Shown piece after piece: positions 510 to 20,759 of a stretch of 22,561 nucleotides of DNA (positions within the stretch are counted from its first letter, which is position 1; each line of letters starts with the position of its first letter). The position numbers were made by a program, and so were the translations under genes. The stretch spans positions 173,159-195,719 of the forward strand of contig MU646838.1 of assembly GCA_026770585.1 (NCBI GenBank). Reading direction: 5' to 3'. Source of the DNA: Baffinella frigidus (taxonomy: Eukaryota > Cryptophyceae > Cryptomonadales > Baffinellaceae). The notes under the pieces are model-generated. The model was not told where the DNA came from and ran no database searches. It saw nothing but the letters and a program-made list of their open reading frames with translations.

Positions 510-939
510 CATCGCTCCTCGAGTGCGTCGAGCCTCACATCCCAACATGCTGGGTACGCCTCACGTCCCAACGAAGTTATCACGCCTGAAAGGGTGGTGC
601 AGCATCGGCATGCGGCGGCGGCACGGGGTAGTGATAGTCGCTGGGGCAGAGGGCATCACGCCCAAGGACCGCCCGATCGGAACGCGATCTTCCGCGGTGC
701 CCGGAAGGGTTGTTGCAAGCCGCATTGCCCCAGGTGGGGCACGGGCTTTGATGAGGAGCACTGTCCCAGGTGGGGGCAGGCAGGCGGCTGGAAGGGTGTA
801 TGTGTAAGGGTGGACGCCCTGATTCCGGCATGAACCGATCCCGGCGTTCGGAAGGTGCTACGGAAGGCAATACAGTAGGGTGCTACGGCACGCCAGAAGT
901 GGCCAGAAGTGGGTTGATGCCGGAATCAGGTTGTGGACC
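510..939. other. Gene-free spacer with a 14-bp inverted repeat
   Basis: No gene is supported. CCTGATTCCGGCAT at 818-831 is repeated in inverted, perfectly complementary form at 917-930, with related GTGGAC sequence outside each arm, so the DNA could form a hairpin with an 85-nt loop. Short direct repeats (CCCAGGTGGGG near 728 and 766) are also present. Confidence 0.5.
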
Positions 940-1185
940 CTTCCCGTCGTCAGACGCTGCGAGTTGGTTGCGGGCAGCATCGCAAGGTACAGGGGTACCT
1001 CAGTCATAAGAAACCGCCCCCCCCCTAGGACCACCATAGGGCCCTAGGCAGAGCCCTACTGTAGGGTCCTAGGGGGGGGCGGTTTTTCATGAGCGAAGTA
1101 CCCCTGTAGGGCGGGCCCGTGGACGAGTGGGTGTGTAGAAACACCGTCGTCAGATGCAGCGAGTTTCTTGCGGGCAGCATCACAC
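940..1185 (-). repeat. Two copies of a downstream-exon 3' edge
   Basis: Read on the minus strand, two blocks (about 940-985 and 1138-1185) resemble the last 36 nt of the candidate exon at 1325-1407. They encode DAARNQLAASDDG and DAARKKLAASDD, against DSVRKQLAASDD in the exon. The six-codon LAASDD core differs only at synonymous positions. The copy at 1145 keeps a GT at the exon edge (GACG|GTGTTT); the copy at 945 does not. Family 1 element b sits between them. Confidence 0.7.
988..1108. mobile_element. Foldback element, family 1, copy b
   Basis: The best-preserved copy. The left arm starts TACAGGGGTACCTCAGTCAT and the right arm ends GAGCGAAGTACCCCTGTA. The inner arms CCCCCCCCTAGGACC and GGTCCTAGGGGGGGG are complementary. 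The whole 121 bp can fold into one long hairpin. No target-site duplication could be identified with confidence. Confidence 0.85.
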
Positions 1186-1210
1186 GGTAGGGTGGGCCGC
1201 CGATGAGGAT

Positions 1211-1300
1211 GTCTAGGCTCTAAGGGCGCCTACGAATGCAAGGTTGTCCTTTTTGGAGTCCGCATCACCTTGCATCCTTTGGTGCACTTAGAGCCTAGAT
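1211..1300. repeat. Foldback sequence, about 33-bp arms
   Basis: Left arm 1211-1243 (TCTAGGCTCTAAG...AATGCAAGGT) and right arm 1268-1300 (ACCTTGCAT...CTTAGAGCCTAGA) are inverted copies with a few mismatches around a loop of about 24 nt. The sequence differs from family 1. Confidence 0.75.
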
Positions 1301-1324
1301 ACCAACAGCCGAGTGGGTGCGTAC

Positions 1325-1407
1325 CGTCATCAGATGCGGCGAGTTGTTTGCGGACAGAGTCCGCCTCGTTGACCTCTCGCTGCAGCTGCTTACTCAACTT
1401 CCCCTTC
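1325..1407 (-). CDS. Candidate exon, charged helical (coiled-coil-like) segment
   Basis: The acceptor GATCAG at 1408-1413 and donor GACG|GTACGC at 1325/1324 bound 83 nt. They encode a charged, helix-prone peptide (KGKLSKQLQREVNE followed by ADSVRKQLAASDD). The start phase (one base completing a codon) fits the phase-2 end of the DTGSS exon at 2000, so it could be the next exon of that protease and form a helical insertion. This is unusual for the A1 family. Support is the phase match, the helical composition and the protein-level conservation of the two edge copies at 940-1185. It could instead belong to another gene or be a chance open frame. Confidence 0.35.
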
Positions 1408-1446
1408 CTGATCATCAGGGATGCGGGATCCGGGGTTCAGGTGCAC

Positions 1447-1507
1447 GATTAGGTTGCTCCACTTGAAGATTAGGTTACTCTACTTGAGATTAGGTAACTC
1501 CACTTCC
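1447..1507. repeat. Three tandem copies of a 20-mer
   Basis: GATTAGGTTGCTCCACTTGA is followed by two diverged copies. The array lies just upstream, in the minus-strand sense, of the candidate exon at 1325-1407. Confidence 0.8.
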
Positions 1508-1747
1508 CCGTGCTGTGCCCCCGCCATCGCGTCACACGTCAGACACAGGCACACCTCTCTCAAACAGCACACGATGAGCGGCGTCGGTCGGTAGCGGGGC
1601 AACGCCGCCATGCATTCCTGTAGCGGGGTAACAGGACGAGGCAAGCGTGCCAGGCGCAAGACCCACACGCCTGGCATTCCCGCCTCTGCCAGGCCCCAGA
1701 GTGCGCACGCAACTCTGGCTGCCTCTACTCGCCTACGCATCAGTGGA
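1508..1747 (-). other. Intronic stretch, Cys-rich open frame, unassigned
   Basis: The minus strand has an AG-bounded stretch that could encode ACGSCAWHACLVLLPRY, and a second Cys-rich part near 1530-1580. No family match or consistent splice phase was found. It probably forms part of the intron between the DTGSS exon and the exon at 1325-1407. Confidence 0.25.
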
Positions 1748-2020
1748 CGGACTTGCCCGTCTTTCCCCATCGCCATGGTGCGTGTGAAGGCTGTGGGAGG
1801 CACTTTCCCGTCCTTGCCCATCGTAACGGTACGTAGAGGCTGTGGGTGAAGTGAAGTGAGGGTGGGTGCGAATGGACGGGGGCCACTTACCCGTCTGTGG
1901 GGGCACGCAAAATTGGTGAATGTTGACGACGGTTCTGGTACTGGGGCAGACTCACCCGTCCTTTGATGAGTTCCCAGCGGTGCTGTGGGGGGCACGTACC
2001 CGTCCTTGCCCATCTTGACA
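1748..2020 (-). repeat. Array of 5' splice-site copies derived from the DTGSS exon end
   Basis: The minus-strand exon end reads ATGGGCAAGGACGG|GTACGT (boundary 2000/1999). Four diverged versions follow downstream: AAAGGACGGGTGAGT near 1950, CAGACGGGTAAGT near 1890, ATGGGCAAGGACGGGAAAGT near 1805 and ATGGGGAAAGACGGGCAAGT near 1755. Two of them (GTGAGT, GTAAGT) are better consensus 5' splice sites than the assigned one, so the choice of donor is uncertain. Confidence 0.75.
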
Positions 2021-2886
2021 AGCGCCTGTTGCACGACGGCAGAGTTGGCAGGCGCCGTGACGAGACCGAAGAACGACGACCCGGTGTCGAACACCACATC
2101 AAATCGCTGCGGTGGTTGCCCCACCTGTTTCGCAAAAACAAAACACGTGCTGTCTCAGAGAGGCGTGTTGAGATTTGTCCCAGGCAGTGACACCCAACTC
2201 TGCAGTGACAGACAACGCCCCTGCTTGACTGTCTCACACTCGCCCTGCAGTGACAAAAGGGCCACTCAATGGCTGCCGTCCACCTGCTTACAAAGCTCCA
2301 CACGTCCCAGCCAGTCCCAGCCAGCCCTTCAGTAACCACGCCACTGAATGAATGACTCGCACTCGCACGCCTACACCCAGGCACGTACGCACGTAGGCAC
2401 GAACGCACGAGCGTACGAGCGTGTTGAGTGGTAGGCAACTCTGGGGCGCGGGGGTCCTGCCGCTCAACACCCTCGTACGCTCGCGCTGGGAATGCTGGCC
2501 TCTTGCTCAGGGGCAGGGGGGTGCAGTGTTGTGGTGCGGTGAGCTACGGGCTGCACGAATCGGGCAAACTGCGTCAGGATTGATGCCGCACAAAGTGGCC
2601 AGACTTTCTGCAACGATTGCAGAGAGGCCTCGCCACAGCGTGGGCTTTACAGACAGTGTCCCATCATTCTTTCTGGTAGAAAGGAATAACCGGAATGTCG
2701 ACCAGAATTCTGGTCGAAATCCCCTTGGAAGCCCACTTTGTCTGCAGATCTGTTCCACGGAAAGGCGTGGTGTTCGCCTATTTTGGGAGAAATCAAACCC
2801 GCAAGGACCTCAAGGGTGGGTAGGGGACCATGACGGGGAGCAGGTAGTAGAGATCGTGAACAATCGACAGTTCCACGTCCGGCACG
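2000..2886 (-). CDS. Aspartic protease (pepsin family A1) N-lobe exons with catalytic DTGSS
   Basis: Two exons read leftwards on the minus strand. Exon 2886-2829 encodes VPDVELSIVHDLYYLLPVM; exon 2124-2000 encodes VGQPPQRFDVVFDTGSSFFG plus 21 further residues. They join in phase 0 and give the classic A1 pattern: YY....V-G-PPQ-F-V-FDTGSS. The Asp of DTGSS is the first catalytic Asp. Acceptors are GGCAG and AACAG; donors are ATG|GTCCCC and GG|GTACGT. No signal peptide, flap, second Asp or C-lobe follows on its left within the window, apart from the doubtful helical exon at 1325-1407. It is either the 5' part of a second protease continuing off the left edge, or the displaced N-lobe of the protease at 3710-6805, which lacks exactly this segment. 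A viral-type protease is unlikely, because the surrounding sequence has the cellular two-lobe pattern. Confidence 0.75.
2406..2485. repeat. Inverted repeat, 26-bp arms
   Basis: Left arm 2406-2431 (CACGAGCGTACGAGCGTG...) and right arm 2460-2485 (...CACCCTCGTACGCTCG) are complementary with a few mismatches around a 28-nt loop. It lies in the intron between the two N-lobe exons of the protease. Confidence 0.75.
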
Positions 2887-3239
2887 CTGCCACGCCCAAA
2901 ACCCCGCCTGTCAGTCCTCGCCCGTTCCTCCTACACAACCGCCTGCATCTACCCTGCTACGAACGACCGTGGCACGCTGTCTCCAACCCCCACCTCCGCA
3001 ACCGTCCCGTTCGCTGCCGCCACGCCCCCGTGTCGCGCCAGTCACTCATCGCCCATGCCTCCTCGCCAACCGTCTGCATCTTCTCTCTCGGCCACGGCAA
3101 GGTTCACGGCGCCCCCAACCCGCGCCTGTCGTCGCCTGTGCCTCGTAGCCACCCGCCTGCACCTTCCCTGCCGCGCACGGCACACTTCCACAGTACGTGC
3201 TGGGTACTCAAGAGAAGCAACTTACCGGTTGCTGACGGT

Positions 3240-3345
3240 TTAGGGTTCAGGGTTTGGGGTTGAGGGTTTAGGGTTTAGGGTTTAGGGTTTAGGGTGTAGG
3301 GTTTAGGGTGTGGGGTTTGGGTTTAGGGTTTAGGGTGTAGGGTTC
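3240..3345. repeat. Degenerate telomere-like array (TTTAGGG on plus strand)
   Basis: About fourteen 7-mer units of TTTAGGG type with TTCAGGG and GTGTAGGG variants. On the strand sense for the flanking minus-strand exons it reads CCCTAAA, as in the introns of the plus-strand genes. Confidence 0.95.
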
Positions 3346-3347
3346 AC

Positions 3348-3493
3348 GATGAGGATGCGCAGCAGGGGTTTGAGCTCCTCGAGTGGAAGAGAGCGCGGGG
3401 GAAGCACAGGGCGCACCTGGCGCGTGACCCCCCGTATCCAGGCAGCTCGGGCGTCTTGTAGTGCCGTTCCAACTTTTCCCGCCGCATCGCCAC
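3348..3493 (-). CDS. Candidate exon upstream of the protease N-lobe, possible propeptide
   Basis: The minus strand has an acceptor (GGTGCAG at 3494-3500) and a donor (CTCATC|GTGAAC) bounding an open 146-nt segment. It reads GDAAGKVGTALQDARAAWIR and then GVTRQVRPVLPPRSLPLEEL...LLRILI. Its basic, Leu-rich character would suit an A1 propeptide, and it lies upstream of the N-lobe exons between two telomere-like arrays. It ends in phase 0 while the exon at 2886 needs phase 2, so a further small exon or different boundaries are required. No family was recognised, and its membership of this gene is inference. Confidence 0.4.
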
Positions 3494-3529
3494 CTGCACC
3501 CCGACACGTGTTCAGAGTTTATTGTTTAG

Positions 3530-3650
3530 GTTTTAGGGCCAAGGGTTTAGGGTTCAGGGTTCAGGGTTCAGGGTTTAGGGTTTAGGGTGTGGGGTGTAGG
3601 TTTGAGGTTTTAGGATTTAGGGCGTAGGGTTTAGGGTTGAGGGTTTGAGA
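3530..3650. repeat. Degenerate telomere-like array (TTTAGGG on plus strand)
   Basis: Units of TTTAGGG and TTCAGGG type, again CCCTAAA on the strand sense for the flanking minus-strand exons. It lies just beyond the stop codon of the protease gene at 3710. Confidence 0.95.
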
Positions 3651-3709
3651 GAAAAGATGCCAGGTCAAGAGTTTGAGTAGCTTTCACCGGAAGAAGCAGT
3701 GGTGTGGCA

Positions 3710-6700
3710 CTATCGGGCGCCTGACAGCGAAAGGACATTGAGTGTGAGCGACAGTGCGGGCGCATTCAGTGTGTGGCAACGAAGGAGCATTGGGAATGAG
3801 GAACTCTGTCGGACCTTGGTGATGTCAGCGCCATGCTCATGAAGTTGGTATCCCTTCCCCGGAGTATACTTCGGTTCGCGCGCCGCGAGCCCGATCCGGG
3901 GAGGGAGGTCGTGCGCGGTGGGTCCGAGGTCGAAGAGTGCGAGCCACGATTGGAACAGCCAGTCCCCGATGATCACCTTGTCGCCTGGGCAGTCTGCCAG
4001 GGGGGTGCGAATCAGGTGCGTATCAGTCTGCCACCCCCACCAGAAAAAGCCATCCCGATCAGTCTGCCCCCCACCCCGAACAGGGTGAGCTAGCAACCCC
4101 AGGGTAAGTCCCACCAGTCAGGGCAACCAAGCGCCAGCCCCACCAGGCCACGCCACCATGTCAGTCTGGCACATCCCTAGGAAAAGGCACCCCTCCACCA
4201 AGCGCCGGCGTGAGTCAGTCGATCAGGGCACGCCGCCGCGTGTGCCCGCGCTGCCTGCTCGTCCACTTGACATGCCTCCTCATCCCGGGTTCGAGGCGAG
4301 ACACGGCATGTCAATCCGCCTACAATCAGGTGTGTTTCGGTGTTGACTAAGGTAGGCCGGCAGCGCCTATAGGGCTCCTACGAGAAACCCGGGCCTAGGG
4401 GCGCTGCGGCCTACCGTAGTGAATACCGTAGGCTGGACCACCCTCGGTATAGGCCGTTACGCTATGAATGTCAGGAAGAACGAGGCGCAGACCTTTTATG
4501 AGGGACGCAAGAACGTACACAGATCACACGTTTCATGAGGCAATGATAGACGAGGCACAACCCTTTCATGAGGCAAGGATGGACATGAGCATCGCCAGTG
4601 CCATGCTATCTTGTGTAGAGGGGGCGCTATCTGCAGGTGGTTCTCGTGTGGAGGCAAGGTTGGGCGTGGCACAGACAGACCTTGCATCAGGCAAGGAAGG
4701 ACGTCGAGGATCACACCTTTCATGAGGCATGCCAGGAAGGACGGGGCAGAGACCTCTCATGCAAGGATGGGCGTGGCACACACCTTTCATGAGGCAAGGA
4801 TGGATGTGCTGTGCTCACCTTGCATGAGGCATGTCCGAATGGACGAGGATCATACCTTTCATGAGGCAAGGATGGACGTGGCTGGCACAGAACTTTTATG
4901 AGGCAAGAATGGACGTGGCTGGCACAAACCTTTCATGAGGCAGCCCTTGACCTGCTGCATAGCTGGCATCCACACATCTGCCGGCACATCAATGTCGATC
5001 GATCCGTCCACCGTGATCTTCAGCGTCGCCTGTACACAACAGGGTTGGTGCTATCAGCGTTTCTATGGTAGGTTGTGAGACGTATCGGCGACTCATCTGC
5101 TCACCGTGCCAGCCACGCCAAGCCAACGTTAGCAAGGTAAGAATGCCAGGCACAAGACGGGGGTGATATATAAGCGTTTAGATTCTAAGTTAGCATACGC
5201 ATCGCCTGCGAACCAACCGTGCCAGCCAACTGCGCAGGCACGAATCCTGAGCACAGCGCCGCTAGAACGCGGCATGCTAGCAGGCACCAGGCTGCCAATG
5301 GTGAGGCAGCCGAAAGGGCGGTGCTCTGAAACGCCACACGCCGGTGGACTCGCGAGGAAGTCTGCGCCCAGCCTCTTCGATGCGGGTGATCCCACAACCT
5401 TCCGCGCTGATGTTTCCCACCATTTGCGAATGCATGTTGCAAGGCTTGGTGCACTTTCAGAAGCCACTGCTGGTGCAAGACGTCACGACGATACGCTCTT
5501 CTCCTGGTGCAATCAAATGCATGGACTATCTGGTATTGTCACCCCCCCCTAGCTTCCCAGAAACTACTGTTCCAGCTGGAGTTGCTGCAGTCTGGTAAAA
5601 ATTCTTGTGGAGCTTTCTCGTTCGGAAAGGAATTCCAACAGCCGAGAAGTGGGGAAACGGGCTGAGAAAATGAAGAAGGCAGTGCACCGCGAGATGGTTG
5701 ACAGGAGCAGGGATAGTTGACGGGGGCAAGAGAAAGGATGAGCCGGGCAACCTGGCCGTTGGAACGCCAGGAGTCGTGGAAGTTCTTCCAGGGCGAGGAT
5801 TCCGCCACCCCCCCGATGTCATTGTCCGGCAGGCAGATGCATGAGGTGCCTGCCCGGTCCACACATCATCAGCTGTGCGCCAGAACTTGATCCGAGGGGG
5901 GCGCGGGGAATGACGGATTAACAGGCGGGAGCAGAAGGGGGATTGGCGTCAAGTCCTGGAAACGAGTGAAGCGTCACAAGGCTTGCCACGGACCACCAAC
6001 CCTCACGATTGGACCAAATCGTCGATTTTAGACTTGAGATTTACCCTTGATCTACCCTCGCAGAGACCCCTGATCCGGGGTCTCTGCAAGGGTAGATCTC
6101 AAGTCTAATAATCGATGATTTGGTCCGACCGTGAGGGTTGGTGGGAGGAGGTGAAGGGTTACCGCTATCGAGGACGCCCGCGACGTGGCGCTTGAGACCC
6201 TTCTTCGCGGACGGTTGGAAGATGGGTGTTTCGCCGAGAGAGATCCCCGTGATGGGGACCACGTACGCGTACTTGGACAGAGAGTCCACGTATTTCATTT
6301 CCCCTTGCACGGCCTTGCGGTCGTAGCCCCCCAGCTGCAGCTCGGCCGCGTCCGGGGATGATAGGAACGAGAAGACTGGTTTGGGGACAGGGCGATCCTT
6401 GCCTTGATTGTCCAGGCCGGTGATGTTTCCCAGCGAGGTAAAGAGCGGCGGGAGAGGCGGAAACTGCGAGTCAGGGTCCTTCCGCGAGGGCGGGGCGAAG
6501 CCCGCAATTCCCGACCCGTCGAACATGCCTGAGACCGACGTCACGCAGCAGAAGGGAGAGAAGGACCCGTAGGGGCCCACCTGCACATAGTCTGAGCAGA
6601 GGAAGCCCTTCACGGTTGTGCCCTGCGCGTAGGTGGAGGAGAACCGCAGAGCGTCGTTGCCTCGCCAAGAGCTGCTCGTCTCCGGCACGAACCGCGAAAC

Positions 6701-6805
6701 GGTTGCGGGTGGGAGGTTCCCAAACGCCGCATCGTTCGCAGCGGTCTTGGACGGCGCGGCTGCCGCCCCAAGCAACCCAAGGAGGAGCAAGGTTGTCCGC
6801 GCCAT
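3710..6805 (-). CDS. Secreted pepsin-family (A1) aspartic protease-like protein lacking the first catalytic Asp
   Basis: Four exons join in phase on the minus strand: 6805-6163, 5849-5752, 5029-4930 and 3993-3710 (stop TAG), giving 374 residues. Residues 1-18 are a signal peptide (MARTTLLLLGLLGAAAAPSK). Residues 34-80 hold the flap region (RFVPETSSSW, then STYAQGTTVKG). Further A1 hallmarks are FDGSGIAGFAP, FSFLSS, LQLGGYD and YVVPITGISLG. The second active site DSGTS (213-217) is rebuilt exactly across intron 1 (GATAGCG|GTAACC to GCAG|GCACC). Exon 3 (LKITVDGSIDIDVPADVW) and exon 4 (VIIGDWLFQSWLALFDLG, RIGLAA) complete the C-lobe, including the usual Cys residues. The N-terminal strands and DTGSS that should precede the flap are missing: the signal peptide runs straight into it. 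So it is either a non-catalytic homologue or a rearranged gene whose N-lobe lies at 2000-2886. The gene is divergent from the CLPTM1 gene. Confidence 0.88.
4019..4170 (-). repeat. Copies of the exon-4 acceptor edge of the protease gene
   Basis: On the minus strand the real acceptor is CCTGGCAG|ACTGCCCAGG (3994/3993). Similar GGCAGACTGA-type sequences preceded by GGTGGGG recur at boundaries near 4027, 4063 and 4165 in the same intron. Confidence 0.6.
4351..4415. repeat. Foldback sequence, 21-bp arms
   Basis: Left arm 4351-4372 (GGTAGGCCGGCAGCGCCTAT) and right arm 4395-4415 (GGGGCGCTGCGGCCTACC) are inverted copies around a loop of about 22 nt containing CTCCTACGAGAAACCCGG. It lies inside intron 3 of the protease gene. 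Confidence 0.75.
4480..4942 (-). repeat. Large array of exon-3 end plus 5' splice-site copies
   Basis: The protease exon 3 ends TGCCTCATGAAAG|GTTTGTGCC (boundary 4930/4929). The intron then carries about ten diverged versions of this sequence (near 4890, 4855, 4816, 4781, 4751, 4714, 4680, 4560, 4530 and 4490), each followed by a CACGTCCATCC-like tail, giving units of about 30-60 bp. Several keep a plausible donor (AAAG|GTGTGT, AAAG|GTATGA, AAAG|GTGTGA). Confidence 0.9.
5030..5751 (-). other. Intron 2 of the protease-like gene
   Basis: This 722-bp interval separates two phase-compatible exons (CAG|GTTGCC donor, TGTACAG acceptor). Open frames occur on both strands between 5129 and 5600, but none has protease-like content and direct joining of the flanking exons is in frame, so I see no further exon here. 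Confidence 0.65.
5992..6145. mobile_element. Foldback element, family 2, inside protease intron 1
   Basis: Two arms of about 65-78 bp (5992-6070 and 6077-6145) are inverted copies at roughly 90 percent identity, separated by only TGATCC. The outer end is CCACCAACCCTCACG. The left arm carries an extra 11-13 bp partial duplication (TTGATCTACCC). It begins about 17 bp beyond the DSG-exon donor, so that exon ends at 6163 and the open frame that runs on to 6041 is element sequence, not protein. A related single arm is at 17157-17200. Confidence 0.88.
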
Positions 6806-6997
6806 AGCCGCCTTCTCAATGCCGAGTCACCAGAAACGAAAGGGTTTATTTCAAAAGTCAATTGCACAGGTTTTTCAGAAGAGCATTTACATTATTGTTC
6901 AAAAGTTGACAAATGGCTCCAACGACGTACAAACGGCTCCAAGCGCGCACATGAAATAGCCCCACTCCAGCAAGGAGACGCGTCCGCTCGTTCAGCG
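6806..6997. promoter_or_regulatory. Divergent promoter region, protease / CLPTM1
   Basis: 192 bp separate the two start codons. The middle is AT-rich (TTTACATTATTGTTC). ACAAAYGGCTCCAA occurs twice in direct orientation at 6909-6922 and 6929-6942, exactly 20 bp apart, a plausible paired factor site. No clear TATA box was identified. Confidence 0.5.
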
Positions 6998-9244
6998 ATG
7001 GCTACTCCGGCCGCGGCACCGCCCGTGGACAATGCCGCTGCTGTCCAGGCGCCTGCCGCTGACGCTGCGCGAAGAGCAGGGGGGGTTGTGTCCACCGGGG
7101 CGGACTGGTTCGCGATGATTCCCCAGATAGCTCTCATGCTCGCAATGTAAACAATCCCCTCACCGTTCGCGCGTCGGAGAGAGCTGACGGGTGGCATGCG
7201 GGCGCAGGGTTTATCCTGCAGATGATGTGTGTGCGGTCTGGGCTTGCTGTGCTGAGCAGACCCGTTGCCTGCTCCCCCCGATGCTGGCTTCTTGTTGGTC
7301 ACACCACTGACAGCTCAGCGTTTTGGGAAGGTACTACACCTTCGCGACGCCGCCGAAGCCGCCAGGGTCGAGAGCTGCGGGAGCTGCCGGGGGAGCGCAG
7401 GGCGCTGTCAACGGGGGGTCTCTCGGCGGCTCATCCGCCCTGAGTGGAGGAGACCCCGCGGGGCAGGCCCTGTCGCAAGGACATCCGATGGCTGCTCCCG
7501 GGGGGATCCCGCCGCTCTGGCCCGTCGGAACCGAATTCGAGATCTACGTGTACTTGACAGGGTCGAACGAGACCTCGAGGGGCGTGGTGATGGCGGACGA
7601 CGGCGTGGTCCCAACGGCCGCAGCGCCGGGCACCGCGGGCCTGCCCGACCCTCTCGATATCCAGGGGAAGGGGCCTCTCATCCTCTACGAGGTGCAGCCG
7701 CGCCACCCCAGCGCTGCAACTCGCCCTGTAATTGCAGGGAGATTCATCCATACCTTGAAGAAGCAGACGCGGTGGTGAAACGCGGGTGCGGTTGGTGGCT
7801 GACGCCTTGCAAACCTGTACAGGAAGGACTGAAGCTGGACTCCTCCCTGGCGTCCAACGCGCGGAACCTGGAGATGAACTTGACGCGCACAGACATCCCG
7901 GACGCGTGGAACAACAAGACGGTCTTCCTCCACATGTTCGCCGCGAGGAACCGCGTGAGTCCCGCTCGATTCTCCCTCTCTTCCCCGCTTCCCACGTCAC
8001 GTGACAGCATGTATCGAGAGGCTGCTGATGTTTTCCGCGCAAGCGAGGCACGAAACAAACTACAGAAATAAGGTAGAAAGAAAGCGACGGGACCGGAGGC
8101 TGACAGGAGGTGGCGGGTGGGTGGTGGGAGCAGGCGGATCCGATGATGTCGCTGGGAACATCTGATGTGGTCCATCGTGTCAGCGCGCTCATCCACTGGG
8201 AAAAGTGCGCTTTAACCCCAAACCCAGACCCAAAACAAAAACAAAGAAAATAAACACAAACACAAACACAGACCCAAAAAACAAAACAAAAAAACCAAAA
8301 CCAAACCCAAACCCAAACCCAAACCCAAAACCAAACACAAACCAACACCCAAGCCCAAACCCACCCTTCTCCTCCCATAGGGCACTGCCGCAGCCGCCGT
8401 TCCTAGAAACGTAGTGCAGGCTCCGGCCCGGAGGGGGGGGAGAGTTGTGTGGTGGCTGGTGGGGCAGGTGCCTGGTTTCGCGATCCCTGAACCAGTGCCG
8501 CCAGATGCGCTCAGCCAGATTGCCGAACAACACTTTGGGGTGCATTCGAAGCAGTGGGTTGTGCGAGCGCGCCAGATGGAACGTAATTCCACTGTAAAGA
8601 AACACGGCGTGGGATATGTAGTGTACAGCAAGGCTGATGTGGAGGTGCGATGGCGGTGTGTTCTCGCAGGCGCGCGAAAGCCAAGAAGACGGTCAACTTG
8701 ATTTCGGGGGAATTGTCGGAGAAGGACAAGGCGATCAACGAAAACAACGCAATGTAGGCTGATTGAGTGATTCGTTGACCGATGTATGGATGGATGGATT
8801 GATGAATGGTTGATCGGTTGGTTGGTTGATTGATTGGTTGATTGGTTGATAGATTGGTTGATAGATTGGTTGATTGGTTGGTTGGTTGGTTGGTTGATTG
8901 GCTGGCTGGTTGGTTGGTTGGTTGGTTGGTTGGTTGATTGGTCGATTGATTGATGGATCAATTGTTCGATTGCTTGATTGGTTGGTTGGTTGGTTGATTG
9001 GTGGATTCATGGATTCATGGATGGCGTGGTGCGGCAGCAGCGCTGCTCCGGACATCGGATGCCCCTGCTTCTGCGAGTGCGCCAGACGCACGTGCATCAA
9101 GGCCACGAAACAGTGGGGGCGAGATGCTCTGAGATGTCTCACGGCAGCGGCACTCCCTCGCCCGGCGTGCGTCGCTGCTCGGGACGCCAGGGACGCCTGT
9201 GTCTCAGAGTCAGAGTCTTGCACTCCAGTGCATCACTCTCTAGA

Positions 9245-9276
<32 letters not shown>

Positions 9277-9940
9277 GAACGTCTCGCGCCTGAGAGCAAC
9301 CGAGAAGCAGTGAGACTTATGCGGGACTCCCGCGCGCGCAGGCTCAACGTGACAGAGGAGGGCGTGGACGACTTCATCCCAGTGTGGAAGTCGGAGTTTT
9401 ACCTGGACATTGTTGAGGAGGTCTCGACGTGGCCTGCAGGGGGCATTCCGCCTCCCATCCTTCAGAACTTCAGGTCATAAACCCTAAACCTCAAACGCCT
9501 AAACCAAAACCCAAAACCCCTAAACCCAAAAAACGAAAAACGAAAATCGAAGCCCGAAACCCGAAACCTGAAACCCGAAGCCCTGAACCCGAAACCTGAA
9601 ACCTGAAACCCTAAACCCTAAACCCTAAACCCTAGACCCTAAACCCTAAACCCTAGACCCTAAACCCTGAACCCTGAACCCTAACCCCTAAACCCTAAAC
9701 CCTTAACCCTTAACCCTAAACCCTAAACCCTCACCCCTTAGTGTTTAGTGTTGATGGGTTGGGTTACAGGGTGCAGGGATTAGGTTAAAGGCGCCTCCCT
9801 TGACACTGTCTGCAGAAGCCTGCGAAAGCGTTTTTCTCGACCAGAATGCGCCAACTCGCTCGCTGCCTCGCTGCACGTAAGAGATGAAACGTGTGGTCTC
9901 TTGAGTGAAGTCGCACTCGCAAGTATCGGTTGAGAGAGAG

Positions 9941-9972
<32 letters not shown>

Positions 9973-12900
9973 AAGAGAGAGAGCGCGTGCGAGAGAAAGA
10001 GAGAAAGAAAGAGAGAGAGGAAGAGAGAGAGAGAGAGAGAGAGAGAGGCACGATCCTCTCGAATCCTCTCTGGCGTTGACGTGTGTGGATGCTGACAGGT
10101 TCATCACGGAGGGGGGTATCAAGTTCTACCTGCCGATCGTGCATATCAACGAATTTTGGCTGACCAAGAAGGAGATGGTGCTGGTCAACGAGTCGGTTGC
10201 CGAACTTCCTCTGAAGCTGCATGTTCGCTGCGAGGGCAAGTATGACTCCCTGCCTGCCTCCAGCCCTCACTCACTCACTCGTTCGCTCACGCACTCACGC
10301 ATGCCCGCGCGCACTCATGCATTCCCTCCACCCCTGTCAACCTCCTGACTCATCCTTGCTAATGCGCGTTTGCACTCCTCGCGTATGAGATTGTTTTCAA
10401 CAATGTGTGTGGTGTGGTGTGGTGTGGCGTGAAAAGAGGGGGTGTACAAAGAGGGGTGTGAAACAAGGGGGGATGAAAATATGGTTTCCGAAACCATATT
10501 TTGAAAATGTGGTTTTTTATGGTGGCAGGTTCAAGTGGTTGATGATCATTCAGTGGGAGGCATCGATGAAGCAGCAACAGTCCATGGGAACCCAGACTGA
10601 CAAGGATCAGGTACCCCTCAGATGCTCCCGTCCCCTCGAATTACCATCACCCTCTAGGCAACCGTCCATGGCCACCCAGACCGACAAAGATCAGGCACCC
10701 CCTTACCTCCTTACCTCCCCTGCCAGACTCACAACGGTCATGTGACCCCTCACCCCCCCCCCGCTCCTGCAAACACCATCGCCCTCTAGGCAACAGTCGA
10801 TAGGCACCCGGACTGAAAAAGAAGAGGTTGTCCCTTGCATCGGCCCTTCCCGTGCAATCATCATCGCTCTAGACCCCCCGCGTCAGCAGCTGGTGAGAAA
10901 GCAAGAATGGGAGTATTCGCGGCACGTGCGGTTGTTGAAGGAGTGGAGGATGGGGACAGGATCTGATCAAGACGGTGCTCCTGGACACCAACCCTGTCCT
11001 CCTCGGAGTCACTATGACCGTCTCGGTATGTCCCTCCCGTAACCTCCTCACCCCCTGCCCCATCTTGCTCTTGCGTTCTCTCGCTCCTGCCCCCCCCACA
11101 CACATCCCTCGCTCTTGCCCAGGCGTCCACCAGTGGCAACAATGCAGGGTCCCCTGCGGGAGGGCGGTATGTGGCATGATGCGCATCGAGGCGGGGCAGG
11201 TGGTGCGGTCCGCATCGTCTATCTTGCTCCTGATCACCGCTTGCTCCTGGGTGCGCCATCGCCTCCGATTCGATGCCGCACCCAGGAGAGAAGCCTCTAT
11301 TGCTCCTCCTGCGCCACAACCTCACGGGCGCCTGTTGCTGCAGACGGATTGCCTTGGGGTTTGGGGGTTGAAGGTTGGGGATTGGGGTTGTGTGTTTCAA
11401 AGCGTTTCCAGGCGTTTCCAGGCGATTCCAATCGATTCCGATCGATTTGAAACGCTGGAAGGACGGGTTGACGGCATGACGCGCGAGGGTCATCTGACGC
11501 TGGGTTCGCACGCGGCAGATGCTGCATACCGTGTTCGACTTCCTGGCCTTCAAGAACGACATCTCCTTCTGGCGCAAGGTTGAGACCATGCAGGCACGTC
11601 CCCCCTCCCAGCCGCATCACGACTCACAATGACAATCTGGGAGATGAGAGGGCGGGTGGCGCTTGCGTGATTGCGGGTGTGGGGTGGATCAGGGCCTGAG
11701 ATTGCGGGTGGCAAGAGGGACAGGGGCTGATTCCGAGTATGGAGGGGAGCAGCGGCTGAGATTGCGGGTGTGGAGTGGAGCAGGGAGATGAGACGGCGGG
11801 TGGCGGGTGGGTGTTCTGGGTGTGTCGAGCAACGGTGCCTGAGATTCCGGGTGTGGGGTGGAGTAACGTGAGAGGGTCAGGGGCTGAGCATTCGGGTGAG
11901 GAGTGGAACAGGGGCTGCGATTCTGGTTGTAATTTGGGGTGGAGCAGGGGCTGAGCATCCGATCGATCTTCACATCTATCATCACCCAGGCGATCGTCTT
12001 CCTCTACCTCCTCGATAACGATACGTCTCTCCCCTTCACTTGTTCGCGCTTGCCCACTAGAATGCAGGCAACGATTCGTTGAGCCCCTTCCTCTCCCCTC
12101 TCTCATCTCCCATCTCCCCTCTCTCCTCTCTCCTCTCTCATCTCTTCCTCTCTCCTCTCTCCTCTCTCCTCCCTTGTCCGTCATGCCTTCTCTCTCTTCC
12201 CTGGTTAGGCTCTTCTCCGACCTCTCTTCGTTGTTCCCATTCTCATTTCCCTCCTTCCGCTCTCCGCTCTCCCCCACTCGAATGCAGCTGCCACCACGCG
12301 CACAGCCAAGCGTGCGAGAGGGGGTGCGTGGTCAGTGGTCAGGTGATGGCCTGCAGCCTCAGGTGACCACGCCAGCCAGAGAGGGCCAGCGCACGCCAGC
12401 GCGCCACAGCGTGGGGCAACGCAGGGCCCGGCAGAGCGGGGCACGCCAGACAGAGAGGGTCATCGGCAGCGCGGGGCAGCACGAGAGGGTGCCGCGCGGG
12501 GCAGCGGTTGACGGGGCAGTGTTCGGCAGGTCATGGGTGATCCTGTTCTCGTCAGGCATCGGTCTCATGATCGAGTGCTGGAAGGTCAACAAAGCCATGG
12601 ACATTGAGATCCTTCCCGCGTTCCCGTTCGTCAGGTGCTGCCCCCCTGGCGAGTGATTTCTCCCCCATCCTCCTTGCTCTGGCGCTTCTTGGACCCCCCC
12701 TATCCAGGATAGCTGCAGCGCGAAGGAGACAATGAAGCACAACGTCAAGCAGAAAATGGGCTCTGGCAAGGTTTAGGAAACGGGCTCCACGGAGAAGTTG
12801 ATGTGCGTGGTGCGCGAGAAACGGTGAGCACGCGATGCTGTGGTGCCGGGCGTGTGGCTTCGAGACGCTGAGATTCGAGACGCTGAGATTCGAGAGACTG

Positions 12901-15624
12901 CATGGAATGGTAGAGAAGCTGGGAGTCGAGGCTCGATGGATTGGTGAGTGGCAGGCTCTCAGCCCCTCCCGCATGCCCCTCCCACGAGAGACTGAATGGA
13001 ATGGTGGCTTGCAGGCTGAAGCACAAGCAGTCGTACAAGAGCGAGACGCTCAAGTATGACAAGCTCGCTATGAAGTACCCCCCCTCTCCAGCCTCCACCC
13101 TCTACCCTCAACCCTACACCTTCCACCCTCAACCCTCCACCCTCACCCCTACACCCTCCCCTCCACCCTCCCATCCACCCTCCCTGCTGCAGAGCCTGAT
13201 GCACCAGGTTGTCATATGCCAGAAAGATGCCGAGAAACGAGGTGTGGTGTGCCGATGCAGCGGTGTCACAAGACAATGCCCTAGCAACCGGCATCGGGCT
13301 CCCGGGGGGTGGTGACGCGAGAGTTGACATGTCTGCCTGGCGAAATCGAAAAAGCGCATTTTGTCGCAGCGCTGATCGGTTTTCTGTCTCGAGTCGGGTT
13401 TCTTGGTGGGGCTGATGCGCAGCGCTGCGTGTTGATGTCTGGTGTTGATGTCTGGCAGCTATCTGTCGTACGTGCTCTACCCCCTCTCGCTCGGATGGTG
13501 CAGTGCTATCACAAGACAGTCCCCGACACCGCAACCGGTGTCGGGTTCCTTGGTGGGCGCTGAGTGTTTCTGTCTGATCGGCAGCTACCTATCCTACGTG
13601 CTGTACCCCCTCTCCCTGGGGTTCTCGATCTACTCGCTCTGCTACAACACCTACAAGTCGTGGTGGTCGTGGCTGATCTCGTCGCTGGTTGGCTGCGTGT
13701 ACACCTTCGGTTTCATCATGATGACTCCCCAGGTGCGTTCCAAGAGATCTCCACTCAGGAAGAGGTGGAGCCAGAGGCGGAGGCAGAGGGGGGGGGGGGA
13801 GTAGAAAGAGACACAGACACAGACACAGACACAGACACAGACACAGACACAGACACTGACACAGACGCAGACGCAGACGCAGAAGGCAGAGAGAGGGAGA
13901 AGGGGCGAGAGATAGAGAGAAGGCAGAGACAAACAGTGATGAGAGAGAGAGGGAAAGTTGCACAGCGGCGAGAAGGAGGTGGGTGGGGTTGGCTGAGAGG
14001 AGGCGGGGGGGGGCTAAACACTGAATTCAAAACCCTAAACCCTAAACCCTAATCCCGTGACCCCAACCCCTTAACCCTAAAACCTAGACCCTAGACCCTA
14101 AACCCCAAACCTAAACTCTAAACTCTAACACCTGAACCCTAAACCCTAAACCTAAACCCTGAACTCTAAACCCTCAACCCTAAACACTTAACCCTGAACC
14201 CTAAACCCTAAACCCCAAACCCTAAACCCTAAATCCTAAACCCGAACCCCTGAACCCTGAACCCTAAACTCTGAACCCTAACCCCTAAACCCTGAACCCT
14301 GAACCCTGAACCCTAAACCCTAAATCGTAAACCCTGGAGCAGCTGTTCATCAACTACAAGCTGAAGTCAGTGGCGCACCTCCCGTGGAGAGCAATGGTCT
14401 ACAAGTTCCTCAACACAATCATCGACGACCTTTTCGCATTCGTCATCAAGGTCCCTCCCGCCTCAACCCGAAACCCGAAACCCGAAATCTGAAACCCGAA
14501 ACCCGTGACCAGAAACCCGAAACCCGAAACCCGAAAGTCCCTCGCGCCCCTCGCCCGACCCCGGCCGTGCCCCACACCCCCGCCCCCGAGCGTCCCCCAC
14601 CCCTCCAGCCTCTCGCTGGCCCCCGCTGTCTGCCTCTCTGCATGGCTAGCCCACCGTGTTCTGTGTGCCAGGGTAGGCCACACCAGGGTCTGGGTGGGTG
14701 AAGGGCGGTGCATCGGGGTCGTGCCGGGGTGTGGATCGGGGGCGCGGGGGGGTCGTTGACGGGCTGCCGGGTGCCTGTAGCCTCTGCCTGCCACCCTGCA
14801 TAGCCCATCGCATCGTGGCAGGGCACGCCCACACGGCAGCAGGTTGTGACAGGGGTGTGCATCAGGGGCGTGGAGTGTTGACGGGCAGCTGGGTGGTGGG
14901 GAGACAGATGCCGACGCTGCACAGGCAGTCGGGTTGTATGCGTCGGGGTATGCATCGGGGAGGTGCCGTGGCGAGGGTAGGAGGGGGGGTGGTTGACGGG
15001 GTGGGTGTTGATCGTGCGGCAGATGCCGACGCTGCACAAGCTGTCGGTGTTCCGCGACGACTTGATCTTCGTGATCTACATCTACCAGCGCTGGGCCTAC
15101 CGCGTCGACCGCGCGCGCGTCAATGAATACGGTCCCGCCCCGAAACCCTGCATCCTCTCTTTTGCCTACTCTAGAGTAGTGCCAGTTGTACTAACCGAGT
15201 CATCTATGAATTAGATGCATCGCTGGACTGAACGCTCTGTTAAGGAACACGGTCCCGCCCCGAAAGCCTGCACCCTACCCCGTGGTCTGGGGGCGTGCAG
15301 AGGCGTGGTCTGGGGGGGGGGGTAGAGACGTGTCGTGTTGTCTGGCGTGTGTTGTGAGCGTACGTCGTTGGCTGGCGTGTGTGGTGGGCGTACATCTCGT
15401 CTGTTGCCTGGCGTGTGTGGTGAGCGTACGTCTCGTCTCATCTTGCTTCCTGGCGCGTAGCGGGCGTGCTTGACAATGTATCAAACCTTGATTTTCCACC
15501 GTGAGCAGGGTTGGTGGCCAAGGATATGGAGGACATGGATCAAGAAGGCAAGGACAAGGCAGCAGACGGGGTGCCTGGTGGTGACGCAACTTCTAGGCCA
15601 GCCATCGCGCCCGCCGCCCCGTGA
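6998..15624 (+). CDS. CLPTM1: CLPTM1-family multi-pass membrane protein, 18 exons
   Basis: Exons: 6998-7146, 7319-7691, 7823-7954, 8468 to about 8622 or 8644, 8670-8753, 9342-9473, 10099-10239, 10529-10610, 10960-11025, 11519-11593, 11948-12024, 12530-12634, 12719-12770, 13015 (or 13022)-13074, 13585-13732, 14343-14450, 15023-15131, 15509-15624; about 720 residues. Family landmarks appear in order: PPLWPVGTEFEIYVYL, DIPDAWNNKTVFLHMFAARN, VNLISGEL, GIPPPILQNFRFI, YLPIVHINEFW, LLDTNPVLLGV, FDFLAFKNDISFW, GLSIRSIF, YLLDNDTSW, CWKVNKAMD, YDKLAMNYLSYVLYP, YTFGFIMMTPQLFINYKLKS, VAHLPWRAMVYKFLNT, IDDLFAFVIKMP, RDDLIFVIYIYQRWAYRVD and VNEYG. It has one N-terminal and about five C-terminal membrane segments; family members sit in the ER and plasma membrane. 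ATG 6998 was chosen because it opens a low-complexity leader in phase with exon 2. Junctions 4/5 and 13/14 are not resolved in phase. Intron 10 appears to be GC-AG (CAG|GCACGT). Confidence 0.93.
8205..8360 (+). repeat. CCCAAA-rich simple repeat in CLPTM1 intron 3
   Basis: Runs of AACCCAAACCC and AACACAAACAC, C- and A-rich on the sense strand. The antisense open frame across it is low complexity and is not a gene. Confidence 0.9.
8760..9030. repeat. TTGG/TTGA tetranucleotide array in CLPTM1 intron 5
   Basis: About 60 tetranucleotide units (TTGG, TTGA and variants) fill intron 5. Antisense translation gives an Asn/Gln/Pro/Thr repeat, an artefact of the repeat. Confidence 0.95.
9238..9280 (+). 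repeat. CACTCT hexanucleotide repeat
   Basis: Tandem CACTCT units in CLPTM1 intron 5, a pyrimidine-rich stretch about 65 bp before the exon 6 acceptor. Confidence 0.9.
9478..9735 (+). repeat. Telomere-like CCCTAAA array in CLPTM1 intron 6
   Basis: Begins four bases after the exon 6 donor (AG|GTCATAAACCCTAAACC) and runs about 255 bp, with near-perfect CCCTAAA units at 9608-9665 and CCCGAAA, CCTGAAC and CCTAGA variants around them. Confidence 0.97.
9931..10047 (+). repeat. GA dinucleotide repeat
   Basis: Purine tract of GAGAGA with AAAGAGA interruptions in CLPTM1 intron 6, about 50 bp upstream of the exon 7 acceptor. This is an unusual place for a purine-rich tract. Confidence 0.95.
10575..10835 (+). 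repeat. Three copies of the CLPTM1 exon 8 end
   Basis: Copy 1 is the exon end (10575-10610) and reads QQSMGTQTDKDQ before GTACCC. Copy 2 (10659-10703, 37 of 45 nt identical) reads QPSMATQTDKDQ. Copy 3 (10791-10835) reads QQSIGTRTEKEE. Copies 2 and 3 are each preceded by CATCRCCCTCTAGG. Spacings are 84 and 132 nt, both multiples of three. The frame stays open through copy 2 and is stopped by TGA near 10742. Confidence 0.88.
11684..11947 (+). repeat. Array of 3' splice-site copies before CLPTM1 exon 11
   Basis: The real acceptor is GTGGAGCAG|GGGCTGAGCAT (11947/11948). At least seven diverged versions precede it, near 11685, 11719, 11752, 11774, 11826, 11873 and 11903 (for example GGATCAGGGCCTGAGATTGC and GGTCAGGGGCTGAGCATTCG), joined by CGGGTGTGG spacers into a minisatellite of about 30 bp. 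Confidence 0.88.
12066..12175 (+). repeat. CTCTCC pyrimidine tract in CLPTM1 intron 11
   Basis: Tandem TCTCCTCTC units starting shortly after the exon 11 donor (AC|GTCTCT). Confidence 0.9.
13085..13190 (+). repeat. CCCTCAACC / CCCTCCACC repeat in CLPTM1 intron 14
   Basis: C-rich degenerate tandem repeat starting about 10 bp after the donor AA|GTACCC, related to the telomere-like arrays in composition and strand. Confidence 0.85.
13459..13620 (+). repeat. Duplicated acceptor and exon 15 start
   Basis: GGCAG|C at 13454-13459 starts a copy of the first 37 nt of exon 15 (real acceptor 13584/13585, 126 nt downstream). Both encode YLSYVLYPLSLG. All seven nucleotide differences fall at third codon positions and are synonymous. 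The 30 codons between the copies contain no stop and are in frame, so either acceptor gives an open product. The duplicated unit also includes CAGTGCTATCACAAGACA-type and GTCGGGTTYCTTGGTGGG sequence, repeated from 13255 onwards. Confidence 0.92.
13808..13862 (+). repeat. GACACA hexanucleotide repeat
   Basis: Eight or nine ACAGAC units in CLPTM1 intron 15, followed by a GA-rich stretch. Confidence 0.95.
14030..14335 (+). repeat. Telomere-like CCCTAAA array ending at the CLPTM1 exon 16 acceptor
   Basis: About 300 bp of CCCTAAA units with CCCTGAA and CTCTAAA variants. It ends only about 7 bp before the acceptor GGAGCAG|CTG (14342/14343), so the repeat must supply the branch point and any pyrimidine tract of this intron. 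Confidence 0.95.
14461..14540 (+). repeat. AACCCGA variant of the telomere-like repeat in CLPTM1 intron 16
   Basis: About ten AACCCGA units begin roughly 15 bp after the exon 16 donor (AAG|GTCCCT). Confidence 0.9.
14783..15045 (+). repeat. Copies of the CLPTM1 exon 17 start
   Basis: The real acceptor is CGGCAG|ATGCCGACGCTGCACAAG (15022/15023). A copy, GACAG|ATGCCGACGCTGCACAGG, is at 14907/14908, 115 nt upstream, and identical for its first 16 exon bases. Both are preceded by TTGACGGG-type sequence. A weaker third copy lies near 14757-14810. The 115-nt spacing shifts frame, so use of the upstream acceptor would be disruptive. Confidence 0.85.
15121..15275 (+). repeat. Duplicated exon 17 end and donor
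   Basis: The exon 17 end, AATGAATACG|GTCCCGCCCC (boundary 15131/15132), is repeated 120 nt downstream as AAGGAACACGGTCCCGCCCC. About 30 of 35 positions match over 15121-15155 against 15241-15275, and GT is kept at the same relative position. Confidence 0.85.
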
Positions 15625-15645
15625 GTCGTGCGTGCTTCCTAGCTG

Positions 15646-15758
15646 TACAGGGGTACCTCGCTCATGGCAAACTGCCCCCCCCGTAGGACCACCATGGGGC
15701 CCTAGGCATAGGCCTACTGTAGGATCCTAGGGGGGTGTTGGTTTTTTATGAGCGAGGT
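15646..15758. mobile_element. Foldback element, family 1, copy c, 21 bp after the CLPTM1 stop
   Basis: Starts TACAGGGGTACCTCGCTCAT and ends TTTTTTATGAGCGAGGT, with the family core CACCATGGGGCCCTAGGCAT. It falls where the 3' untranslated region of CLPTM1 should lie and would form a long hairpin in the transcript. The terminal CCCCTGTA of the right arm has been lost. Confidence 0.85.
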
Positions 15759-16053
15759 CGGTGCGGGTGACTGCGCGCGCGAGTAGCGTGCGGGCAGCAT
15801 GCGTTGAGATGCCCTTCGACACGCATCGTCCGTGTTCGGAGGAGCCTGCAATGTCGACGCAGGCGGTGTCAGGTGGGTTGCATTCGGGAGGAGAGAGGAG
15901 AGAGGCGATGGCAGCAGAGGAGTGAGGGGAGAGAGTGAGAGTGTGCGCGTGCGAAATTGTGGAAAGAGAGTGGACTGGGGTGGTGTTTAATACAGTTGCC
16001 GAATGATACGAACGATCCGTGGCGGATCGGATTTGCGGGGAATGAGTGGCGTG
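15759..16053. other. Gene-free spacer
   Basis: Mixed sequence with a GAGAGAGGAG purine stretch near 15888-15940. No gene is supported. Confidence 0.5.
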
Positions 16054-18480: not shown

Positions 18481-18506
18481 TGAATTCAGGACAGTAGTCC
18501 CACGCC

Positions 18507-18633
18507 TACAGGGGTGTACACCTCGCTCATCAAACCTCCCCCACCCCCTAGGACCACAATAGGATTCTAGGCATAGTCCTACTGTAGGGTTCTAGGGGGG
18601 TGCGGTTTCTAATGAGCGAGATGCCCCTGCAGG
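18507..18633. mobile_element. Foldback element, family 1, copy f
   Basis: Complete copy. TACAGGGGTGTACACCTCGC opens the left arm and AATGAGCGAGATGCCCCTGC closes the right, with the core GGACCACAATAGGATTCTAG. The arms pair with several mismatches. Confidence 0.82.
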
Positions 18634-19712: not shown

Positions 19713-20759
19713 TCACTGTTGCAGGAGGTTCTTCCGTTTGCCCGGGGCAACGGTCGCGTCCTGGTACTCCTGGACCTCGCGCATGTCGAGAGGCGTTGCG
19801 TCGAGAAGCACCACGTCCGTGTAGTGCAGGTCGCTGCAGAAGCCCTGCAAACACCAGTCACATTGCTTCCGGGTTGTCGGAGTACGGGGTAGGAGACAGC
19901 GGTTACGGGTTGTGCGGTTAAGCTGCTTTGATTCTGGGCATTCCTTTTACCACGTACGCGCACGACGGCCATGGTGGGTCCGAAAATACCGTGCAAACAC
20001 ACTCAACCTGACAGGGGCAGCGCCAAACCTCACGCTCTTTCTAGCGGCTGGACCGAGGGGTGGAATGAATGGGACCTGGGCGAAGACAAGCGCGCCGGGG
20101 CCGAAGGCCTGCACGTACTTGGCGGCATGCGCGCGCGCCTTGCCGATCGGCAACCGTTCGTTGTCTGTGAAATGCGCGCTCCCGTAGAAGTTCTTTGCGT
20201 CGATCCAGTGGACCAGCTTCCCGTTCACGCGAATCGGCTCTTCGGGGAATAAGAAGTCGGGGGTGGGGGGCCGCCCCTTGCGGACCTCGTCCTGCTGCAT
20301 CTTCTCCTTGAACTTGGCGCCCGCCTCCGTGAGGAACTTTTCGATCGCCAGCTCAAAGAGACCCGCACAATTCTGCTGGCCCGCGTCGGTGCCCATGGCG
20401 TTGTGGCCCATCTTCGGGCTCTGCCCAAAGCGCTGGTTCCCGGACGGAAACGAGCGCAGCAGCGTGCGCCGGAGGCTCAGCGCCTGATAGGTCGTCGCGC
20501 CGCACTTTGCTGCGAAGGCTTTGATCTCCTCCTGACGTGCGTCGGGCAGGTCCATCCCCCGGCCAGACTCCCCCTTGCGGTGGAGCACAGAGAGCAGGCG
20601 CCTTTCGATCTGGACCGATGCCACCACGCTGTTACACGGCCACTCCAGCGCCAGGACGGCCGACTTCCCCAGGATGCTCTGCAAACCCTCCTTGACGCTC
20701 GCCATCGCACCAAACAGCGCCACGGTGTTGTCTCGTTGTCCAGCTCCATGAGCCTCCAT
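19713..20759 (-). CDS. CDIN1: CDIN1-like TPD-family nuclease
   Basis: Two exons, 20759-20076 and 19844-19713 (stop TGA), join in phase 0 (GCCCAG|GTCCCA to TTTGCAG|GGCTTC), giving 271 residues, close to the roughly 280 of animal CDIN1 (C15orf41). The C-terminal half has the family pattern: a Leu-rich helix (LFELAIEKFLTEAG), PTPDFLFPEEPIRVNG with TPD at 166-168, then HWIDAKNFYG with D-x-K (IDAK, 186-189), then AKYVQAFGPGALVFAQGF. TPD plus (D/E)xK is the PD-(D/E)xK nuclease-like core of this family. In animals the protein partners codanin-1, linked to histone supply and erythropoiesis; the algal role is unknown. The N-terminal 120 residues were not recognisable. ATG 20759 is the first in-frame ATG. 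The gene is divergent from the hibernation-factor gene 284 bp away. Confidence 0.85.

Follow-up and report, generated by a model that had tools for sequence, protein, structure and literature searches.

We analyzed a 22,561-nt stretch of the genome of the cryptophyte alga Baffinella frigidus (contig MU646838.1, positions 173,159-195,719, within a 382-Mb assembly), hereafter called the window, in which introns of several genes contain diverged copies of sequence that spans their own exon-intron boundaries. These edge copies were examined in the window and in introns of genes on other contigs.

Genes and introns analyzed

A first-pass annotation of the window had named nine exon edges with such copies. 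Five of them lie in a CLPTM1-family gene on the forward strand (6998-15624), whose 16 introns were located from spliced alignments with five homologs. Identical placement of introns 2-16 came from four or five of these homologs, and of intron 1 from two; the intron at 11594-11947, placed identically by all five, is of the GC-AG type. An NCBI Baffinella frigidus protein is identical to a portion of this gene, as spliced, at 413 of 413 residues and over 11 introns. On the reverse strand, an aspartyl-protease gene has an intron at 3994-4929 that was placed by reading frame and motif and contains several copies of its donor edge (4929); the upstream exon matches PF00026, with the match ending before the 4929 junction. 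A second aspartyl-protease-like exon on this strand (1743-2019; PF00026, E 1.1e-4) carries donor edge 2000 in a putative gene model, and donor edge 1324 (933-1357, reverse strand) likewise belongs to a putative gene model.

The window set of 22 introns comprises 16 from the CLPTM1 gene, 4 from an S30AE-family gene, 1 from a TPD-domain gene, and 1 from the aspartyl-protease gene. Outside the window, 19 introns in the CCT1, CCT6, CCT4, and CWC22 genes, all on other contigs, were placed with Protein Data Bank (PDB) chain sequences. Together, these 41 introns form the homology-fixed set, the exception being the aspartyl-protease intron, which was fixed by frame and motif. The full set of 69 introns (138 edges) adds 28 introns from a gene finder alone, which was tuned on the window after its initial settings over-predicted introns. 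In genes not used for training, the finder agreed with the PDB-chain spliced alignments at 18 of 19 introns, where the chains themselves had been found with the finder's proteins.

The 41 introns have AG/GT as donor consensus; C-rich positions come next, and the usual RAGT continuation is missing. The acceptor consensus is GCAG followed by G (80%) and T (53%). On the sense strand, their telomere-like arrays are almost always of the C-rich form (CCCTAAA; 490 versus 10 motif hits), with at least 10 C-rich hits in 14 introns and at least 10 G-rich hits in none. The 28 gene-finder introns contain 263 C-rich and 194 G-rich hits, and 165 of the latter sit in one predicted L030 intron, where the opposite strand also carries a prediction. 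Elsewhere in the window, a palindromic element of ∼110 bp lies at 15640-15760, with elements similar by eye near 400-510, 1000-1110, and 18500-18630; in a genome search, all 40 scored of 1912 first-look candidates matched at 88-100%.

Copies of exon edges within introns

Each edge was aligned to its own intron by gapped local alignment, which was run with 44-nt self-overlaps ignored and no shuffled control. By this analysis, eight of the nine named edges have boundary-crossing copies, bearing out the claim that these introns contain copies of their exon edges; five of the eight are in the CLPTM1 gene, where homologs fix the boundaries. In the intron at 10611-10959, the exon end at 10610 forms a donor block with three diverged copies of 19-34 exon nt (10574-10872), and an ungapped match at this donor covers 37 exon nt plus 7 intron nt at a shift of 84 nt. 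Acceptor 11947 belongs to an array of ∼31-nt units (11681-11962) with three copies that include 8-15 exon nt, and a tandem array at 11669-11802 has a period of 31 and 4.4 copies. Acceptor 13584 has one copy containing 36 exon nt and the intron end at a shift of 126 nt (13393-13620), acceptor 15022 has two copies with 14-29 exon nt, the nearer at a shift of 115 nt (14746-15051), and donor 15131 has one copy with up to 31 exon nt at a shift of 120 nt (15101-15276).

Among the edges on the reverse strand, donor 4929 has three strong copies (13-34 exon nt) and one weak copy, donor 2000 has three copies (4-19 exon nt), and donor 1324 has two copies (33 exon nt), which may be exons encoding a repetitive protein. 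At acceptor 3993, for which the first-pass annotation had reported copies at 4019-4170, edge alignment found no boundary-crossing copy and a match on the intron side only. Weak crossing matches also occur at edges beyond these nine, such as the low-complexity donor 12024.

Chance matching does not account for the copies in the window set, as 8 of 44 edge windows recur at a score of at least 12, compared with 0 of 132 when intron interiors were shuffled. Two genes served as comparisons. In the S30AE-family gene (21044-22465, forward strand), where a PF02482 match crosses all four junctions, the first and last of them near the match ends, none of the four introns has an edge window scoring above 8 (scores of 6-8). 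The intron of the TPD-domain gene (19845-20075, reverse strand), whose junction is spanned by PF14811, has no copy in the window test (donor 6, acceptor 10), and edge-to-intron alignment gives a weak gapped crossing match at its acceptor (score 13.5).

The pattern had been proposed to be a habit of the genome, and it does extend to other genes and contigs. At a score of at least 14, an edge window recurs in 6 of the 19 homology-fixed introns outside the window, in 13 of all 41 homology-fixed introns, and in 22 of the full set of 69; among the 13 is CLPTM1 intron 12, where the match covers only 3 exon nt. On the exon side, edge-copy alignments reach up to 46 nt. In one gene-finder intron (L025, 2417-3052), inspection by eye shows a perfect 31-nt inverted repeat around one exon-edge copy, and the exon-end copy in this intron is identical at 27 of 27 positions.

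Many copies retain the splice dinucleotide, with GT kept in 7 of 14 donor copies and AG in 7 of 9 acceptor copies. In the 10 nt nearest the boundary of donor copies, 84% of positions are preserved in exon halves and 73% in intron halves; this apparent better keeping of exon halves is inflated, since a criterion on the exon side was used to select the copies. At 11 introns of CLPTM1, the annotated protein reflects use of the exon-proximal site, in agreement with the earlier suggestion that decoy splice sites are tolerated.

Edges compared with intron interiors

The copies had been described as arrays centered on boundaries, and a comparison of edge windows with windows from intron interiors had been proposed as a check. 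When this comparison was made, the recurrence of edges was below or similar to that of interior windows at a score of at least 12, and unmasked sequence gave no boundary excess at any threshold; the exception is the set of donors under strict masked matching, which is considered below. In the window set at this score, interior windows recur at 45% (mean over introns) and edge windows at 18% in unmasked sequence, and the values are 28% and 16% when microsatellites are masked. The masked count of 7 of 44 edges compares with 12.3 expected from interior windows (P(sim≤obs) = 0.016). The 41 homology-fixed introns behave similarly (13 of 82 edges versus 19.6 expected, P(sim≤obs) = 0.016), and 24 of 138 edges recur in the 69 masked introns versus 28.1 expected.

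Without masking, the 69 introns have 19 donors and 14 acceptors that recur at a score of at least 12, versus 27.7 expected for each (33 of 138 versus 55.4 for both), and 16 donors and 9 acceptors at a score of at least 16, versus 20.6. A distance profile of the window with 40-nt windows rises as a ramp from 0.05 in the exon through 0.15-0.19 at the edge to 0.2-0.47 deeper in the intron, and it has no peak at the boundary. A neutral simulation gave edge/interior ratios of 0.67-0.87, where constraint on the exon lifts the ratio from 0.67 to 0.77-0.87. At the sensitive threshold, these data do not support boundaries as a focus of duplication. The statement that every copied block contains the boundary holds for the cases that had been chosen and fails beyond them, as interior windows free of any boundary also recur, and do so more often.

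Origin of the edge copies

The copies are direct and local. At a score of at least 16, 21 of the 138 edges have a copy in direct orientation and none of the 138 has an inverted one (2 do when the score is lowered to at least 12). Templated insertion by polymerase-theta-like end joining is a repair mechanism that could copy nearby exon edges into introns, and we regard it as a very doubtful source of these sequences. Some copies form short islands within or next to telomere-like arrays, with inverted repeats near, and intron interiors often hold inverted copies, in that 5.5% of windows there recur inverted at a score of at least 16 (0.06% when shuffled) and 16% recur directly. However, this mechanism is expected to yield both orientations, and hairpin elements like that at 15640-15760 may account for the inverted repeats of the interiors. 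Inverted templated copying is therefore disfavored as a source of the edge copies by their uniform orientation at the stricter score.

Copying of partly spliced RNA back into the genome had also been put forward. When exon-exon junctions were compared with intron sequence under a loose criterion, 4 of 69 passed, two of them in a WD-repeat gene, and each match extends only 8-9 nt past the junction, which leaves this route disfavored.

Recurrence of sequence at short range is widespread in noncoding DNA. In exons of the window, 2.5% of windows recur locally, and the corresponding values for three intron sets are 39, 23, and 18%. Unannotated DNA outside the window gives 43% of 24,177 windows, in a sample of eleven segments of which five surround a hairpin element and were picked for it, and which had a wider search range than short introns and may include introns of undetected genes. 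Within the window alone, values of 43% for introns and 5% for intergenic sequence raised the possibility of an intron-specific duplication process, which was dropped because unannotated DNA elsewhere is as repetitive.

Direct, local, and non-inverted copies together with spared exons fit a process of local direct duplication that is filtered by selection. Based on these results, the edge copies are probably, for the most part, spill-over of frequent local direct duplication in noncoding DNA rather than products of a mechanism aimed at splice sites. Short direct duplications, here mostly at shifts of tens to about two hundred nucleotides, would enlarge noncoding DNA, perhaps through slippage or unequal exchange, and the duplicates would then diverge and be further split by telomere-like and other microsatellite arrays. 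Because the ends of duplicated blocks would fall more or less anywhere, some blocks would straddle an exon edge. Such duplications would spare the protein while the spliceosome takes the exon-proximal site, and for that reason they would persist and come to resemble decoy splice sites, whereas selection presumably removes duplications within exons.

Several observations weigh against local duplication without regard to splice sites. Local copies are scarce in the intergenic sequence of the window itself (5-7%). In 15 of 21 edge copies, the ungapped run is at most half of the shift; the ratio of run to shift ranges from 0.13 to 2.41 over the 21 edges and is at least 0.67 in 4 of them, with some runs being longer when gaps are allowed. 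Some copies are islands separated by unrelated DNA, in or beside telomere-like arrays, so plain tandem duplication would be insufficient without later insertion or expansion between copies.

The remaining points concern donors in the 69 masked introns, with thresholds and subsets that were chosen after the data had been inspected. Donor copies exceed expectation at scores of at least 14 (14 versus 9.9, P = 0.057), 16 (14 versus 7.6, nominal P = 0.004), 18 (12 versus 5.7, P = 0.002), 20 (7 versus 3.7, P = 0.051), and 24 (5 versus 1.1, P = 0.002). At the score of at least 16, donors outside the window show 11 of 47 versus 4.7 expected (P < 0.001). Two genes, the WD-repeat gene L034 and L020, which we take to be RCC1-like, were left out of one re-count, as the copies in their introns may be repeat exons; 11 of 58 donors then remain versus 6.5 expected (P = 0.024), and 8 of 36 versus 3.5 outside the window (P = 0.004). 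The donor profile at this score has a small local maximum of 0.23 at position 0, compared with 0.17-0.22 at +10 to +60. Exon constraint gives a simulated ratio of 0.77-0.87 at most, so the donor ratio near 1.7 is not explained by it alone. For at least four introns outside the window, masking leaves no interior window, so that they do not contribute to the masked expectation, which biases the comparison toward an apparent excess.

From this donor excess, and from its persistence outside the window when the two repeat-protein genes are removed, one could propose that duplication is truly focused on donor sites, for example through breaks or stalled replication where transcription meets splicing. 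We consider this unlikely. Acceptors show no excess in the 69 masked introns at a score of at least 16 (7 versus 7.6), as such a focus would allow, but the donor excess is absent at a score of at least 12 over all introns and at every threshold without masking, and it is not significant in the homology-fixed introns alone (7 of 41 versus 5.2, P = 0.22). In addition, the recurrence of windows placed 30-50 nt into the intron from the donor (0.20-0.22) is little below the edge value, and the choice of threshold and subsets was post hoc. A related proposal, to which we assign a similarly low probability, is that local duplication favors the region of the 5' splice site, such that introns would lengthen from the donor and leave graded decoy donors as a record, and upstream acceptor copies would be purged because acceptor scanning would use them.

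Intron gain by tandem duplication is described in potato and Drosophila (PMC4974935, PMC2891723). As in Baffinella, the tandem copies there carry splice-site sequence and the protein may stay unchanged; however, one duplicated segment supplies both intron ends in the described cases, whereas in Baffinella usually one edge is copied and the two contexts are barely alike. If introns here were born by duplication of an AGGT-bearing exon segment (the Rogers model), their content would be old exon. AG/GT is indeed favored at both edges (G in 80% and T in 53% after the acceptor), the donor and acceptor contexts of one intron resemble each other slightly more over 60 nt than do mispaired contexts (0.301 versus 0.283, z = 2.6), and donor-acceptor local matches of at least 12 occur in 4 of 69 own pairs versus 6 of 414 mispaired ones. 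Yet the difference in context amounts to ∼1 nt in 60 and most copied edges are one-sided, making this origin highly improbable. As a general source of the introns it is disfavored, with a small nominal context signal remaining.

Other known systems share some features with the edge copies. In duplicated human genes, internal tandem repeats at exon-intron boundaries are reported to alter splicing or form novel introns (PMC2812944). The likeness lies in the ∼30-bp repeat units at these boundaries; the human repeats vary in number between recent duplicate loci, with 27 intron modifications described, whereas in Baffinella diverged copies lie within single genes, in the 22 of 69 introns noted above. 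Direct repeats near intron splice sites (PMC11782384) likewise adjoin exon-intron borders, but they are 4-30 bp long and pair a 5' with a 3' border, whereas a Baffinella edge recurs within the intron that it bounds. Introner elements (PMC9860276) also shape introns by repeated sequence, but they spread copies into many genes, and the Baffinella copies come from the local exon edge. Among the titles and abstract openings listed for Baffinella introns and for cryptophyte introns with tandem repeats, none describes the pattern.

If the donor excess held genome-wide, this would point to splice sites as hot spots of duplication. Local duplication in noncoding DNA, the origin that we favor, illustrates how a striking pattern can arise from where selection tolerates duplications. 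This genome would also be a good place to study how the spliceosome passes over near-copies of real sites.

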